In this document: positions 1,520-6,089 of the stretch, in pieces
Position numbering within the stretch: position 1 is the stretch's first letter
How the letters are laid out: every line of letters starts with the position of its first letter
NCBI GenBank assembly: GCA_028698765.1
Contig: JAQVVW010000100.1
Coordinates: 1 to 6,089 of the forward strand
Source: Methanoculleus sp.
Lineage (GTDB): Archaea > Halobacteriota > Methanomicrobia > Methanomicrobiales > Methanoculleaceae
Reading direction: 5' to 3'
DNA length: 6,089 nt
Translations under genes and position numbers: made by a program
The notes under the pieces: generated by a model
Databases searched by the model: none
The model's input: only the letters and a program-made list of their open reading frames with translations
What the model was told of the DNA's origin: nothing

Positions 1520-2500
1520 ATGAAGGATACGGCAATCAACGTCTTGAAGATTCTCGAAGAATCGCCCGGCCCGCTATCGGGGGAACGGATCGCAGAGCAA
1601 CTGGGAATCACCCGATCGGCTGTCTGGAAGCAGATACGCGAACTCCGCAGGCTGGGGTATGGGATATCGTCGTCCCGGGCGGAAGGCTACCGCCTTGAGG
1701 AGAAGAGCGACCGGCTCCTTCCCTACGAGATCAACAAGAAGCTGCGCACCCGGGTCATCGGACGGCAGATCCGTCATTTCGATAGCACCGCCTCTACGGG
1801 CTGGATTGCGAAGAAACTTGCCGCCGAGACCGATCCTGAAAAACTCCACGGCATGGTGATCATCGCCGAGGAGCAGACCGGCGGGGTAGGAAGGCTCGGA
1901 CGCGCCTGGGTCTCGCCTGCCGGCGGCATCTGGCTCACCATTCTCCTGAAACCGAAGATCCCGCTCGACCACCTCTTCATGATCACCATGGCCGGATCGG
2001 TCGCGATTGCCCGCGCCATCCGCAAGGAGTACGGCATCGGTGCGCTCATCAAGTGGCCCAACGACATCTTCATCGGGGACAAGAAGGTCGGCGGTCTGCT
2101 CCTGGAACTTGCTGCCGAGGCGGATACCGTGCACTACGCCCTACTCGGGATCGGGATCGACGCGAACATATCGCTCACCGAACTCTCGTCTCCCCTGAAG
2201 GATATCCTGACCTCGCTCGAGGCGGTGGTCGGCCACGAGGTCGACCGCGTGGCGCTGCTTGCCCGGGTTCTCCGGGAGTTCGAACTGCGCTATCAGCAGC
2301 TCGAGGACGGCGAATACGACTCTATCATCCGCGAGTGGAAGAGTCTCTCCATGACGATCGACCAACGGGTGGTCATCAAGACGATCAACAAGACCTTCGC
2401 GGGAGAGGCGATCGATATCGACGCCCACGGCGCCCTGCTCATCCGGAAGGACAACGGAAAGGTTGAGCGGGTCATCGCCGGGGACTGTTTCCAGTTCTAA
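1520..2500 (+). CDS. birA: Bifunctional biotin-[acetyl-CoA/pyruvate carboxylase] ligase and biotin repressor BirA
   Basis: Activates biotin with ATP to biotinyl-AMP and attaches it to a lysine of the biotin carrier domain, here presumably PycB; the N-terminal domain should bind DNA as a biotin-operon repressor. Of 326 residues, 1-60 form the winged helix (SGERIAEQLGITRSAVWKQIRELRRLGY, 20-47). The ligase core has FDST (87-90), the nucleotide/biotin loop GGVGRLGRAW (121-130), KWPND (178-182) with the conserved Lys, KVGGLLLE (189-196), and GIGIDAN (210-216), where the family more often has Asn-Val-Asn. Residues 280-326 fit the BPL C-terminal beta domain. The frame is open from GTG 1475, but AGGT at 1509-1512 is well spaced (7 bases) for ATG 1520, and the resulting N-terminus MKD matches E. 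coli BirA; ATG 1514 is the alternative. It follows the DUF2111-like gene without a gap. A BirA-type operator lies 192 bases past its stop. Confidence 0.96.
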   Translation: MKDTAINVLKILEESPGPLSGERIAEQLGITRSAVWKQIRELRRLGYGISSSRAEGYRLEEKSDRLLPYEINKKLRTRVIGRQIRHFDSTASTGWIAKKLAAETDPEKLHGMVIIAEEQTGGVGRLGRAWVSPAGGIWLTILLKPKIPLDHLFMITMAGSVAIARAIRKEYGIGALIKWPNDIFIGDKKVGGLLLELAAEADTVHYALLGIGIDANISLTELSSPLKDILTSLEAVVGHEVDRVALLARVLREFELRYQQLEDGEYDSIIREWKSLSMTIDQRVVIKTINKTFAGEAIDIDAHGALLIRKDNGKVERVIAGDCFQF

Positions 2501-2674: not shown

Positions 2675-2687
2675 GCGCATCAACAGA

Positions 2688-2696
2688 CATTTATGT
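2688..2696 (+). promoter_or_regulatory. Probable TATA box for the bioY operon
   Basis: The stretch catttatgt is the best TATA-like element at a workable distance: a start about 26 bases past its centre falls at about 2719, just before the ATG at 2723, giving a nearly leaderless message. It overlaps the left half of the BirA-type operator, so bound BirA should block TBP. A second AT-rich element (aaaataaa, 2706-2713) lies in the operator spacer but would place the transcript start after the ATG. Confidence 0.45.
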
Positions 2697-2724
2697 CAAC
2701 CACCCAAAATAAACTGGTTGACAT
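2693..2724. promoter_or_regulatory. BirA-type operator at the bioY start
   Basis: ATGTCAACC (2693-2701) and GGTTGACAT (2716-2724) form a perfect 9-bp inverted repeat with a 14-base spacer. The known BirA signal in bacteria and archaea is TTGT-AACC, a spacer of about 14-16 bases, then GGTT-ACAA; the arm identity, order and spacing fit, with outer bases AT in place of TT. Its place, directly at the first gene of a biotin importer and just after a birA that carries a DNA-binding domain, is the expected one. It covers the likely TATA box, the transcript start and the start codon, so repression by blocking initiation is the natural reading. Confidence 0.85.
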
Positions 2725-3223
2725 GATTCGCCGGGCCAAGATTCTCGCCTACAGCGGTACCTTCATCGCGCTGATCGCCGCCGGGAGCTGGATATCCATA
2801 CCGCTCCCTCCGGTTCCGCTCACGCTTCAGACCCTTTTCGTCCTGTTATCCGGGATCGTCATGAAGCGCTACGCGGTGATCCCCGTCGCTCTTTACGTCC
2901 TCCTCGGGGCGGCGGGCCTCCCGGTCTACCACAACGGCACGGCGGGCCTCGGGGTGCTTCTCGGCCCCACAGGCGGGTTCCTGGTCGGCTTCATCCCCGC
3001 CGCCCTCGTCGCCGGGCTCGCCTACGAACACGAGTCGCCGAAATGGCGTATAGGAGGCCTTATCGCAGCCTGTGCAATCTACCTCTCGGCCGGCGCCGTA
3101 TGGCTTTCATATTCGGCCTCGCTCTCGCTCTACCAGGCTATCCTGCTCGCCGTCGCCCCGTTTATCATCGGCGATGCCGTAAAGGTCGCGGCCGCCTACG
3201 CCATAGGAAAACGGGTGACATGA
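2723..3223 (+). CDS. bioY: Biotin-specific S component of ECF transporter, BioY
   Basis: Integral membrane substrate-binding subunit that captures biotin and is driven by the ECF module encoded next. It has 166 residues, normal for the family, with about six membrane helices. Family hallmarks: SWISIPLPPVPLTLQTLFVLLSG (22-44), GAAGLPVYHNGTAGLGVLLGPTGGFLVGF (62-90) and FIIGDAVKVAAA (147-158), whose Asp151 and Lys154 match the conserved acidic/basic pair near the biotin site. The frame also has an ATG at 2693, adding MSTTQNKLVD; I prefer 2723 because the ten extra codons lie wholly inside the operator palindrome and the TATA-like box at 2690 would then be too close. Neither ATG has a strong ribosome binding site, which suits a leaderless message. 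The stop overlaps the next ATG as ATGA. It is probably repressed by BirA through the operator at its start. Confidence 0.95.
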   Translation: MIRRAKILAYSGTFIALIAAGSWISIPLPPVPLTLQTLFVLLSGIVMKRYAVIPVALYVLLGAAGLPVYHNGTAGLGVLLGPTGGFLVGFIPAALVAGLAYEHESPKWRIGGLIAACAIYLSAGAVWLSYSASLSLYQAILLAVAPFIIGDAVKVAAAYAIGKRVT

Positions 3224-3891
3224 TCCAGATCACCAATCTCCGCCACCGGCTGCTCGACGTCCACGACCTCGCGGTGGACGCGCGTCATATCGCCATCATC
3301 GGGCCGAACGGGAGCGGCAAGACGACGCTTCTTTCGGTCTGCTCCGGTATCGAGGAGCCCGAAGCGGGGACAGTCCGGCTCCTCGGCCGTCCCCCGTCCG
3401 CCATGAAGGTCGGCTGGGTGGGGGAGTTCCCCGACCGGACGCTCCTCTTCTCCCGGGTTTACGACGAGATCGCGTCGACACCCCGGTTCCGCCACCACCC
3501 CTGCCCCGAGACGGACGGGATGGTCCGGGCGGCCGCGGAGGTGGTCGGCATCCCGCACCTCCTCGGCAAAAAGGTCGCAGATCTCTCCGGGGGGGAGAAG
3601 GCACTCGTCGCGCTGGCCGCCGCCTGTGCAGGCGACCCCGAGGTGCTCGTCCTGGACGAGGCCGACTCGCACCTGGACGGCGTGACGGCGGAGCGCGTCC
3701 GGCGCGTGGTGCAGGAGAGCGCCGCGGCCCATGTGCTCTGGTGCACGCAGTCGATGGACACCGCGGCCACCGCGGACTACGTCCTCTTCATGGAGAACGG
3801 CCGCGTCCGGCACCACGGCACGCCGGAGGAGGCCTTCTCCGCGCTTGAGGAGACGTGCTTTTACCCCACGATCTGGAGGGTCTGCCGGTGA
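3220..3891 (+). CDS. ecfA1: ECF transporter ATPase subunit, first copy (diverged Q-loop and H-switch)
   Basis: Cytoplasmic ABC ATPase (223 residues) that should pair with the next gene product to power biotin uptake. Walker A is GPNGSGKTT (28-36), signature LSGGE (122-126), Walker B VLVLDE (142-147) with catalytic Glu147 present, and D-loop SHLD (150-153). Two usual residues are replaced: the Q-loop, normally Q-N-P-D, reads VGEFPD with Glu69 in place of Gln, and the H-switch, normally T-H-D, reads CTQSMD with Gln177 in place of His. Its own nucleotide site therefore looks weakened, while the signature it lends to its partner is near normal. The start is ATG 3220, overlapping the bioY stop (ATGA); the frame is open upstream to 3043, but that part is out-of-frame bioY sequence and has no ABC features. 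Assignment to biotin comes from the neighbouring bioY. CbiO-type metal-uptake ATPases are related, but no Co/Ni genes are present. Confidence 0.93.
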   Translation: MIQITNLRHRLLDVHDLAVDARHIAIIGPNGSGKTTLLSVCSGIEEPEAGTVRLLGRPPSAMKVGWVGEFPDRTLLFSRVYDEIASTPRFRHHPCPETDGMVRAAAEVVGIPHLLGKKVADLSGGEKALVALAAACAGDPEVLVLDEADSHLDGVTAERVRRVVQESAAAHVLWCTQSMDTAATADYVLFMENGRVRHHGTPEEAFSALEETCFYPTIWRVCR

Positions 3892-4586
3892 GGGTCGCAC
3901 TTCTCGATCTCGTCTTTTCGCGGGGCTCGTTCGCCCTCCGGGGCAGCGGCACGTTCGACGAGGGCGTGCACCTGGTCAGCGGGCCGGTGGGAAGCGGGAA
4001 GTCGACGCTTGCTCTTCTGCTTGCCGGCCTGCTCCGGCCCGGGAGCGGGGCCGTCCGGCGGCACGACGTTCTGTCGACGCAACTTTTGCTGCAGTTCCCC
4101 GAGCACCACGTCACCTCCCCGACGGTTGCCGGGGAGGCCGCTTCCTGGGGGCTTGTGCCGGAGGACGCGCTCGCGCTGGCGGAGTTGTCGGGGCGCGCGG
4201 ACGACGACCCGTTCCACCTCTCCCGCGGCGAACTCAAACGGCTGACCCTTGCCTGCGCGCTCCTGAACGATCCGGATCTGCTGCTGCTGGACGAACCGTT
4301 CAGTTCTCTCGACTGCACCGCGAAGAAGAAGGCCTGTGGGATGCTCGAAGAGCGGGATTCCGGCATCACGATCGTCTTCTCGCACGAGCGCGCGGTTCTT
4401 CCCCGGGTGGACACGATCTGGGAGATGGAGGAAGGCGTTCTTGTGGCCCGCGGCAGCGTGCCCGACGCGATCCCCTCCTGGCGGCACGCTCCGCCGTATC
4501 TTCGGTATGCTCTGGAACAGGGCGCCCGCCCTATGAACATCAGGCTCTCCGACGCCCGGGAGGCGCTATGCAGGATCCGCGGCTGA
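3888..4586 (+). CDS. ecfA2: ECF transporter ATPase subunit, second copy (diverged signature motif)
   Basis: Second ABC ATPase (232 residues), presumed partner of the preceding one in an EcfA-EcfA' heterodimer at the inner face of the membrane. Walker A GPVGSGKST (32-40), Q-loop QFPEHH (69-74) with Gln69, Walker B LLLLDE (131-136) with Glu136, D-loop SSLD (139-142) and H-switch FSHERA (164-169) with His166 are all present. The signature is altered to LSRGE (111-115), Arg replacing the first Gly of LSGGQ. The start is GTG 3888, overlapping the previous stop (GTGA) and preceded at 7 bases by a strong GGAGGG (3875-3880); the open frame back to GTG 3855 adds a segment that is only out-of-frame sequence of the previous gene. 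Its 3' end overlaps ecfT by 19 bases. Identity with the partner looks low, so a recent tandem copy is unlikely. Confidence 0.93.
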   Translation: MRVALLDLVFSRGSFALRGSGTFDEGVHLVSGPVGSGKSTLALLLAGLLRPGSGAVRRHDVLSTQLLLQFPEHHVTSPTVAGEAASWGLVPEDALALAELSGRADDDPFHLSRGELKRLTLACALLNDPDLLLLDEPFSSLDCTAKKKACGMLEERDSGITIVFSHERAVLPRVDTIWEMEEGVLVARGSVPDAIPSWRHAPPYLRYALEQGARPMNIRLSDAREALCRIRG

Positions 4587-5221
4587 GGCTTCTTTCCGTC
4601 GCCGTCCTCTCGCTCGCAGCGTTCGCGAGCACCGCGGGAGCCGCCGCCGCACTCGTCTGGTGGCTGCTTTTTACACCACGCACAAAATCACTCCCCCGCC
4701 CGGGGGTGCTGCTCCCGCTCGTTGCGATAGTTGCCGCAACGGCACTCGTCTCGGCGTGGGGCGGCGGTGCAGGGCTCTCCTACTTCTTTCGGATGACCGT
4801 GATCCTCCTCCTCGCCGCGTGGGCGTATGCCGGGACGGAGGATGGTGAGGTGCTCACCGTAGCGGTCTGGGCGCTCGGGAACCGGGTGGGGTTCGAGGTC
4901 GGGCTCATCGCTGAGATGGGGATTGGCGGCCTCTCCGTGATCCGCCGGGAGGTCGAGCAGGTGCGGGTGGCGATGGCGCTGAAGGGTATCCGGCCGGGTC
5001 TCCGCTCGATCGTGCCGCTCGCCGTCACTCTCATCGTCATGGAGATCCGGCGGGCCGACGAGACCGCGCGGTTGCTTGTGGTACGGGGATACACGACCGG
5101 GGGAAAGATATGTCCCCGGTTCAGGACGGATCCTCTGGACGTTCCCGCTGGAATGGCGGCCATAATACCCGCCATTTTATCAGCTCTACCTCTTAGTGAC
5201 GTTTTTATATTAGTAGGATGA
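4568..5221 (+). CDS. ecfT: ECF transporter transmembrane subunit EcfT (CbiQ/BioN family)
   Basis: Membrane scaffold linking BioY to the two ATPases; 217 residues, on the short side for the family. Hydrophobic segments lie at about 8-36, 47-64, 72-88 and 195-215, with a further weak one at 146-160. A long charged cytoplasmic region between about 122 and 188 holds the coupling helices. The family's two Ala-Arg-Gly-type coupling motifs are recognisable but altered: AMALKG (135-140), with Lys for Arg, and VVRGYT (171-176), with Val for Ala. The start is ATG 4568, with GGGAGG (4558-4563) four bases before it; the frame is open far upstream to 3731, but that sequence is Arg- and Pro-rich out-of-frame translation of the ATPases. 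It is the last gene of the bioY operon. Its end carries the promoter of pycB. Role in biotin uptake is inferred from context. Confidence 0.88.
   Translation: MQDPRLRLLSVAVLSLAAFASTAGAAAALVWWLLFTPRTKSLPRPGVLLPLVAIVAATALVSAWGGGAGLSYFFRMTVILLLAAWAYAGTEDGEVLTVAVWALGNRVGFEVGLIAEMGIGGLSVIRREVEQVRVAMALKGIRPGLRSIVPLAVTLIVMEIRRADETARLLVVRGYTTGGKICPRFRTDPLDVPAGMAAIIPAILSALPLSDVFILVG
5152..5178. repeat. Inverted repeat with T-run in the 3' end of ecfT, upstream of the pycB promoter
   Basis: AATGGCGG (5152-5159) and CCGCCATT (5169-5176) form a perfect 8-bp stem with a 9-base loop, followed by two more T to make a four-T run. It lies inside the last codons of ecfT, about 25 bases before the pycB TATA box. 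It could be an operator, a weak terminator for the importer operon, or a by-product of the Ala-Ala-Ile-Ile-Pro-Ala coding sequence. Confidence 0.45.
5202..5212 (+). promoter_or_regulatory. TATA box of the pycB promoter
   Basis: The stretch tttttatatta in the last codons of ecfT is close to the methanogen TATA consensus (TTTATATA) and is the strongest such element in the window. A start about 25 bases downstream falls at about 5232, leaving a leader of roughly 40 bases before the ATG at 5275. The T5 within it could also help end transcripts from the importer operon. No BirA-type palindrome is seen near it. Confidence 0.65.
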
Positions 5222-5274
5222 ATTTTTGAGAGGCTTTATTGATATCTTCTCAGCCCTTCGAGGTGTACAAATCG

Positions 5275-6089
5275 ATGTGTGCTGCCAAATTAGGTTCACT
5301 CAATATCACCGACACCACGCTTAGGGACGCGCATCAGTCGCTCATCGCCACTCGCCTCCGGACTGAGGATATGCTCCCGCTTGCCCGGGCCATCGACGAA
5401 GCAGGCTTCTTCTCCGTCGAGGCCTGGGGCGGGGCAACCTTCGACACCTGCATAAGGTTCCTCAACGACGATCCCTGGGAACGTCTCCGGGTGCTGAAGG
5501 CGGAGCTACGGCGCACCCCTATCCAGATGCTCCTGCGCGGTCAGAACCTCGTGGGCTACCGGCATTACCCTGATGACGTGGTGGAGAAATTTGTAGAGGC
5601 GTCGGCGCGAAACGGGGTCGACATCTTCCGGGTCTTCGACGCATTAAACGATATCCGGAACATGAAGAAAGCGATGGCGGAGGTCAAGAACGTCGGGGCG
5701 CACCTGCAGGGTGCGATATCCTATACGACGAGCCCCGTCCATTCGGTCGCAACGTTCGTCGATATGGCAGAAGAGCTCTATTCGCTCGGCTGCGACTCGA
5801 TCTGCATCAAGGACATGGCCGGCCTGATCATGCCGCACGATGCCCGCGACCTCATCACGGGGATCAAGAAGAGGGCGGACGTCAGGGTCTGTCTCCACTC
5901 CCACTGCACGAGCGGCGTCGCGCCCCTGAGTTACCAGGCGGCCATCGACGCAGGCGTGGATATCCTGGATACGGCGATGTCGCCATTCGCCTTCGGCACC
6001 TCCCAGCCTCCGACGGAGAGCGTCGTAGCAAGCGTTGCCGGGACGGCGCGAGACACGGGTATCGATCTCCTTGCGCTCCGCAAAGTCAG
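5275..6089 (+). CDS. pycB: Pyruvate carboxylase subunit B (carboxyltransferase), N-terminal part, runs off window
   Basis: Moves CO2 from carboxybiotin to pyruvate to give oxaloacetate, the entry to the incomplete reductive citrate path in methanogens. The 271 codons present form the carboxyltransferase TIM barrel: DTTLRDAHQSLIATR (13-27) with metal ligand Asp13, EAWGGATFD (49-57), LLRGQNLVGYRHYPD (86-100), FRVFDALND (118-126), CIKDMAG (177-183) with Lys179, the lysine that is carboxylated and binds metal in the family, and HSHCTSG (208-214) with metal ligands His208 and His210. The biotin-carrying tail would lie beyond the window. The start is ATG 5275, nine bases after GAGGTG (5260-5265); TTG 5239 and GTG 5263 in the same frame are possible but weaker. 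Without the tail and neighbours, the alpha subunit of oxaloacetate decarboxylase cannot be excluded; the archaeal setting and nearby birA favour PycB. pycA is not in the window. Confidence 0.93.
   Translation, partial: MCAAKLGSLNITDTTLRDAHQSLIATRLRTEDMLPLARAIDEAGFFSVEAWGGATFDTCIRFLNDDPWERLRVLKAELRRTPIQMLLRGQNLVGYRHYPDDVVEKFVEASARNGVDIFRVFDALNDIRNMKKAMAEVKNVGAHLQGAISYTTSPVHSVATFVDMAEELYSLGCDSICIKDMAGLIMPHDARDLITGIKKRADVRVCLHSHCTSGVAPLSYQAAIDAGVDILDTAMSPFAFGTSQPPTESVVASVAGTARDTGIDLLALRKV

Follow-up and report, generated by a model that had tools for sequence, protein, structure and literature searches.

Predicted BirA operators at bioY and upstream of PEP carboxylase genes in Methanomicrobiales

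A palindrome that fits the BirA operator was found at the start of bioY in a stretch of Methanoculleus DNA, and the same operator lies upstream of ppcA, the gene for a biotin-free carboxylase, in relatives. Our reading, to which we give a probability of roughly 80% on the basis of comparative sequence analysis, is that biotin-charged BirA represses biotin uptake and, where ppcA exists, this biotin-free backup enzyme. Behind it stand observations on the site itself: it is conserved, it lies at defined genes in the genomes, and in several clades it has been lost together with the BirA helix. The occurrence of both carboxylases is a further one.

The predicted bioY operator and its conservation

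The window, i.e. the whole stretch of DNA analysed (6,089 nucleotides), contains in this order the end of rtcB, an unassigned ORF, a DUF2111 gene, birA, bioY, the genes of two ABC ATPases, a likely ecfT and pycB (Table 1). This gene order recurs in most of the archaeal relatives compared, some of the pieces being truncated by contig ends. The preliminary description had placed a DNA-binding BirA just upstream of bioY, and the family matches agree with it: the birA product is above the Pfam cut-offs for HTH_11 (53.8 bits, cut-off 25), BPL_LplA_LipB and BPL_C and above the NCBIfam cut-off for birA_ligase, and it can be aligned with BirA chains of known structure from S. aureus and E. coli; the best alignment covers residues 7-323, and that to 1bia residues 19-313. 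The likely ecfT product gave no family match in Pfam or NCBIfam. The pycB start was placed from distant homologues, which align from about residue 12-13 of a longer ORF. The DUF2111 gene (1071-1514) immediately precedes birA here and in many relatives, and the TTTTTATATTAG stretch at the end of ecfT (5202-5275) could be a separate pycB promoter.

Table 1. Features of the window, with positions counted from its first base
Feature	Position	Strand	Basis or remark
birA, bifunctional biotin-protein ligase, N-terminal winged helix	1514..2500	+	ATG at 1514 or 1520
Recognition-helix motif codons, T-R-S-A-V-W-K	1610..1630	+	From sequence
Putative T-rich, TATA-like stretch	2687..2694	+	Conserved T positions in 18 aligned sites; presumed function
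BirA-type operator	2693..2724		Arms 2693-2702 and 2715-2724
bioY, S component of biotin importer	2723..3223	+	Pfam BioY; start by alignment
ecfA, ABC ATPase of ECF type	3223..3891	+	Family matches (Pfam, NCBIfam); conserved neighbour
Second ecfA, ABC ATPase	3888..4586	+	Family matches (Pfam, NCBIfam); conserved neighbour
Likely ecfT, transmembrane component	4568..5221	+	Named by position; conserved neighbour
pycB, pyruvate carboxylase subunit B	5275..6087	+	Truncated by window end; PRK09282 above cut-off

The palindrome reads ATGTCAACC-N14-GGTTGACAT at 2693-2724. It is real and matches the BirA signal, as first proposed; it occurs only once in the window and is present in none of 200 dinucleotide shuffles of it. 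It had been described as a perfect 9+9 palindrome with arms 14 bases apart, of which the location and the BirA register (TGTCAACC-N14-GGTTGACA) stand, but the perfect arms are one base longer, that is, 10+10 bp around 12 (ATGTCAACCA on the left and TGGTTGACAT on the right). The BirA operator consensus, given in PMC545781, is an inverted repeat near TTGTnAACC-N14/15-GGTTnACAA, and the window site, with spacer N14, agrees with 16/16 of its core positions. Sites with a BirA-like score of at least 14/16 were found in 0 of 100 random windows, and a score of 13 was reached in 4 of the 100. Since a bare perfect 9-bp inverted repeat with a loop of 8-20 bases is unremarkable (at least one in 19 of 60 Markov-random windows, and another in the window itself, at 3351), we put the weight on the consensus match and on conservation, and it is these two, not the repeat alone, that set aside a chance palindrome.

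Two further statements on the position of the palindrome needed adjustment. It was said to cover the bioY ATG, and the A and T of the ATG at 2723, which the alignment indicates to be the conserved start codon, do lie within it, with the third base outside. Of 18 aligned proximal sites only three, those of the window, L001 and L003, have an in-frame ATG at 2693; 13 read TTG at that position and 2 read CCG or TCG. The palindrome was also said to cover a TATA-like box; in the 18 aligned proximal sites the conserved T-rich stretch is found just 5' of the left arm, and the spacer holds AAAATAA in 11. The promoter position at bioY is a presumed one.

A scan of genome contigs gave 55 loci with a BioY relative, among them a Methanoculleus-like set (L001-L024) with BioY identity of 73-89%, most titled Methanoculleus and some Methanomicrobiales or Euryarchaeota. 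In each of the 24 loci of this set one or more sites near bioY reached a score of 14, in L020 about 300 bases upstream, and so it was in L031 and L033-L039; L025-L030 and L032 showed no site scoring 13 or more near bioY. The conservation check that the preliminary description had proposed was run on the window plus 17 loci whose proximal N14 site is intact (n = 18), and it came out in favour of the operator: the arms hold 1.90 and 1.85 bits/base, values that are raised because the 18 loci were picked for having a proximal site, against 1.13 in the spacer and 0.19-0.28 between -60 and -21 in the flank. This conservation, the neighbouring birA and the joint loss with the helix described below support the reading of the palindrome as a BirA operator at bioY.

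The earlier account did not notice the frequent doubling of the operator or its presence before ppcA in relatives. A second operator occurs 39-41 bases upstream in seven loci (L005, L006, L007, L008, L014, L021 and L023), with the T-rich stretch between both copies, while loci with a single operator have either the distal or the proximal copy only, the window being of the proximal kind.

Some loci of the scan had particularities of their own. L025-L029 are five MAGs titled Methanomassiliicoccaceae or Methanomethylophilaceae whose birA-bioY-ecf-pycB cluster resembles that of Methanoculleus. In the tree their BirA groups with Methanoculleus relatives; transfer and binning error are both possible. 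Between divergent birA and bioY, three loci from spirochaetes show a BirA-like site of score 14 whose spacer is 13 (L041, 1777-1805; L045, 5996-6024; L047, 2994-3022). A variant operator, TGTTAACC-N14-GGTTAACA, was found between birA and bioY in L260, from a genome with two BirA homologues (G062), and GTTAACC sites similar to it are listed for several neighbouring genomes of the order.

Sites, ppcA and the BirA recognition helix across the order

The strict pattern was run on 93 of the 232 Methanomicrobiales genomes: 35 of the genus, with spacers of 13-16, and 58 others, with sites of spacer 14-15, which were chosen non-randomly from blocks already known to carry the operator or ppcA. This revealed 100 strict sites, 75 at birA-bioY, 23 at ppcA and 2 elsewhere. 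The genus contributed 39 (29 at bioY, 9 at ppcA, 1 elsewhere in G038) and the 58 further genomes 61 (46 at birA-bioY, 14 at ppcA and 1 in a G128 piece that codes a GTPase-like protein); two of the 46, in G163 and G168, lie 0.5-0.7 kb from birA and were assigned via that gene. There was no strict site in 15 of the 93 genomes, and the backward-pattern control gave 0 sites in the genus and 1 in the 58 others. None of the 100 strict sites was assigned to pycB, which follows the bioY operon and may be reached by read-through. A loose pattern, GTNAACC-N13..16-GGTTNAC, matched 165 of the 232 genomes and was left out of the site counts because its backward control matched too, in at least 29. The 71 loci fetched by pattern (bioY in 62, ppcA in 7, neither in 2, one of these from the loose pattern) are not a site count, being mostly one per genome and partly redundant.

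The ORF behind the second class of sites is an archaeal-type PEP carboxylase, ppcA (TIGR02751, PF14010), present in 13 of the 35 genus genomes and 56 of the 232 of the order. We scanned 330 bases upstream of 56 ppcA genes, leaving out G203 (a C-terminal fragment), counting the duplicate loci of G034 and G037 once and taking G022 as two genes. Sites scoring 14-16 precede 34 of the genes (13 of the 14 from Methanoculleus and 21 from other blocks). The other 22 stay at or below 11, and no gene falls in between; besides G037 and G131 they come from the G198-G209 block (9) and the G086-G097 block (11). Of 3,720 shuffled upstream regions none reached 14 and ten reached 13. The ppcA sites have a spacer of 14 or 15, are kept in several blocks of the order and end 44-93 bases before the M codon of MSTQHPD in 32 of 34, the distances in G085 and in one G022 copy being 160 and 281 bases. 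pycB is present in 221 of the 232 genomes, and these include 54 of the 56 that carry ppcA; judged by pycB, the biotin-dependent and the biotin-free carboxylase occur together in those 54. Among the nearest BirA relatives of the window, G001, G011 and G004 have ppcA with a site, and G036 is without ppcA. G004 is a cultured species, M. chikugoensis, and carries the operator at bioY as well as at ppcA. One Methanoculleus genome, G022, has two ppcA genes (L093, L102) with an operator upstream of each. M. sp. Afa-1 has a gene of the metallo-beta-lactamase fold directly ahead of ppcA and in the same orientation (L057, 1568-2350), and L060 has an ORF that resembles it (1544-2302).

We scored the recognition helix of BirA by the motif [TS]R.[AV][VI]WK and compared it with the bioY site in 107 loci; G015, G018, G033 and G112 (no bioY on the piece), G093, G105 and G205 (helix not covered) and the second paralogue G062b stand outside this table. 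Motif and site agree in 102 of the 107 loci, 72 having both and 30 neither; four have the motif without a site (G130, G133, G203, G207) and one, G017, has a weak site with a changed motif. The site is missing in these groups: the G086-G097 block, the G198-G209 block with G131, the L025-L029 MAGs, and G039, G044 and G049. In the G086-G097 block, which includes the Methanofollis locus L030, P replaces T or S in the helix and the W is changed, and in the G198-G209 block the R has become K, S or G in 9 of 11. A similar comparison with the ppcA site covers 48 of 55 genomes, leaving out G093, G105, G110, G111, G112, G188 and G205, and gave 27 with both, 18 with neither, G037 and G207 with the motif only and G017 with the site only. 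G037 keeps the motif, has no ppcA site, and its bioY site is weak and displaced. Clades with an altered recognition helix are thus mostly without the operator at both bioY and ppcA. In a BirA tree computed from residue 70 onward, the site needs 6 changes and so does the motif, compared with a mean of 29 when the site labels are shuffled. The association of helix and operator, drawn from sequences, is clear as a pattern; it is not significant by the phylogenetic test of independent pairs because only one pair lies on well supported branches.

Alternative readings of the palindrome

The arms might pair in the RNA as a hairpin at the start of bioY and control translation, as their perfect complementarity in the window would allow. 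This is the least credible of the readings considered. The copies at ppcA are a good way upstream of the start codon, and the hairpin was rejected when 8 of the 18 proximal sites were found to break a pair uncompensated and the window gave no Rfam match. It is also very improbable that the palindrome is bound by a regulator other than BirA which by coincidence acts on these genes. Some room for such a regulator is left by the four loci in which the BirA motif stands without a site and by the predicted nature of BirA binding, but the site adjoins birA, equals the published BirA consensus (PMC545781) and vanishes in clades with changed BirA helices.

A third reading is that BirA controls uptake through the bioY operator and that the copies at ppcA hardly affect ppcA. 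The numbers offer it something: birA-bioY accounts for three quarters of the strict sites, and ppcA is present in only 56 of 232 genomes of the order against 221 with BirA. However, the ppcA sites persist in several blocks with a spacer of 14 or 15, 32 of 34 of them at 44-93 bases, and they are missing where the BirA helix changed. We regard a circuit confined to the importer as unlikely, and we favour BirA control of both the importer and ppcA.

The proposed switch, known systems and biological meaning

Biotinyl-AMP is the corepressor of E. coli BirA. In Methanoculleus, under ample biotin, BirA charged with biotinyl-AMP would dimerise on the operator between the TATA-like stretch and the bioY start, and the occupied operator would keep the archaeal polymerase from starting, so that transcription of the importer genes would be blocked; when biotin is scarce, BirA would stay uncharged and import would be switched on. 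Pyruvate carboxylase requires biotin, and PEP carboxylase makes oxaloacetate without it. Since relatives carry the same operator upstream of ppcA, biotin would repress ppcA too: with ample biotin BirA would also shut off PEP carboxylase and pyruvate carboxylase would make the oxaloacetate, and once biotin runs short, repression of ppcA would be lifted and the biotin-free enzyme would take over. We infer BirA binding, its dependence on biotin and repression rather than activation from these sequences, the sign of the regulation being assumed. Because pycB lies downstream of the putatively repressed operon, read-through could blunt the switch.

That BirA sites exist in archaea is itself not a new prediction, having reportedly been made already, by its title, in Rodionov et al. 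2002. A search of open-access titles and abstract openings found no literature joining BirA and PEP carboxylase in archaea. Outside the order, none of 40 ppcA upstream regions from other lineages of the phylum (37 anchored) scores 14, the best being 13. Variant palindromes near ppcA were seen there in L310, L313, L316, L320 and L321 (G415, G379, G462, G449 and G314, respectively): TGTTAACC-N12-GGTTAACA in G379 and G415, one arm TGTCAACC in G462, and TGTAAAC-N17-GTTTACA in G314 and G449. Neither a palindrome of the variant form nor, by tblastn, a bioY was found in or near 17 birA neighbourhoods from such outside genomes (G379 excluded). The variant palindromes are a lead which hints that BirA may control ppcA beyond the order.

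The bacterial BirA regulon, in delta-proteobacteria and other lineages, has the same palindrome and a bifunctional DNA-binding BirA; an example from PMC545781 is aTGTcAACC-[N14]-GGTTgACAg in front of Desulfuromonas bioW. Its core is biotin synthesis, with fatty-acid genes added in Desulfovibrionales (PMC5343134), whereas in Methanomicrobiales the predicted targets are PEP carboxylase and the importer of biotin, and the operators at bioY often stand in tandem. The proposed logic also resembles that of cofactor-free isozymes repressed by the cofactor, in which the substitute is off while the cofactor is available, such as B12 with NrdDG or MetE, nickel with [Fe] hydrogenase and iron with flavodoxin; biotin, BirA and carboxylases are absent from the examples in the available parts of the two sources (PMC545781, PMC2211319). 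In Corynebacterium glutamicum, according to PMC3398298, PEP carboxylase serves anaplerosis in place of pyruvate carboxylase under biotin limitation and the bioYMN importer is likewise induced in low biotin, but BirA is monofunctional there and is not the regulator.

In the parts of the literature surveyed, BirA control in archaea is merely mentioned, and it now gains comparative support across an order, including the joint loss of operator and helix. It is likely that BirA of Methanomicrobiales, besides regulating biotin supply, acts as a metabolic switch that senses biotin and chooses between pyruvate carboxylase and PEP carboxylase as the source of oxaloacetate; the same may hold for other methanogens whose operators have drifted. 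If so, biotin would be one more cofactor that represses the substitute enzyme able to work without it. The switch would explain why these archaea retain both carboxylases that make oxaloacetate, and the ppcA link gives a testable reason for the pair that connects vitamin supply to carbon fixation.
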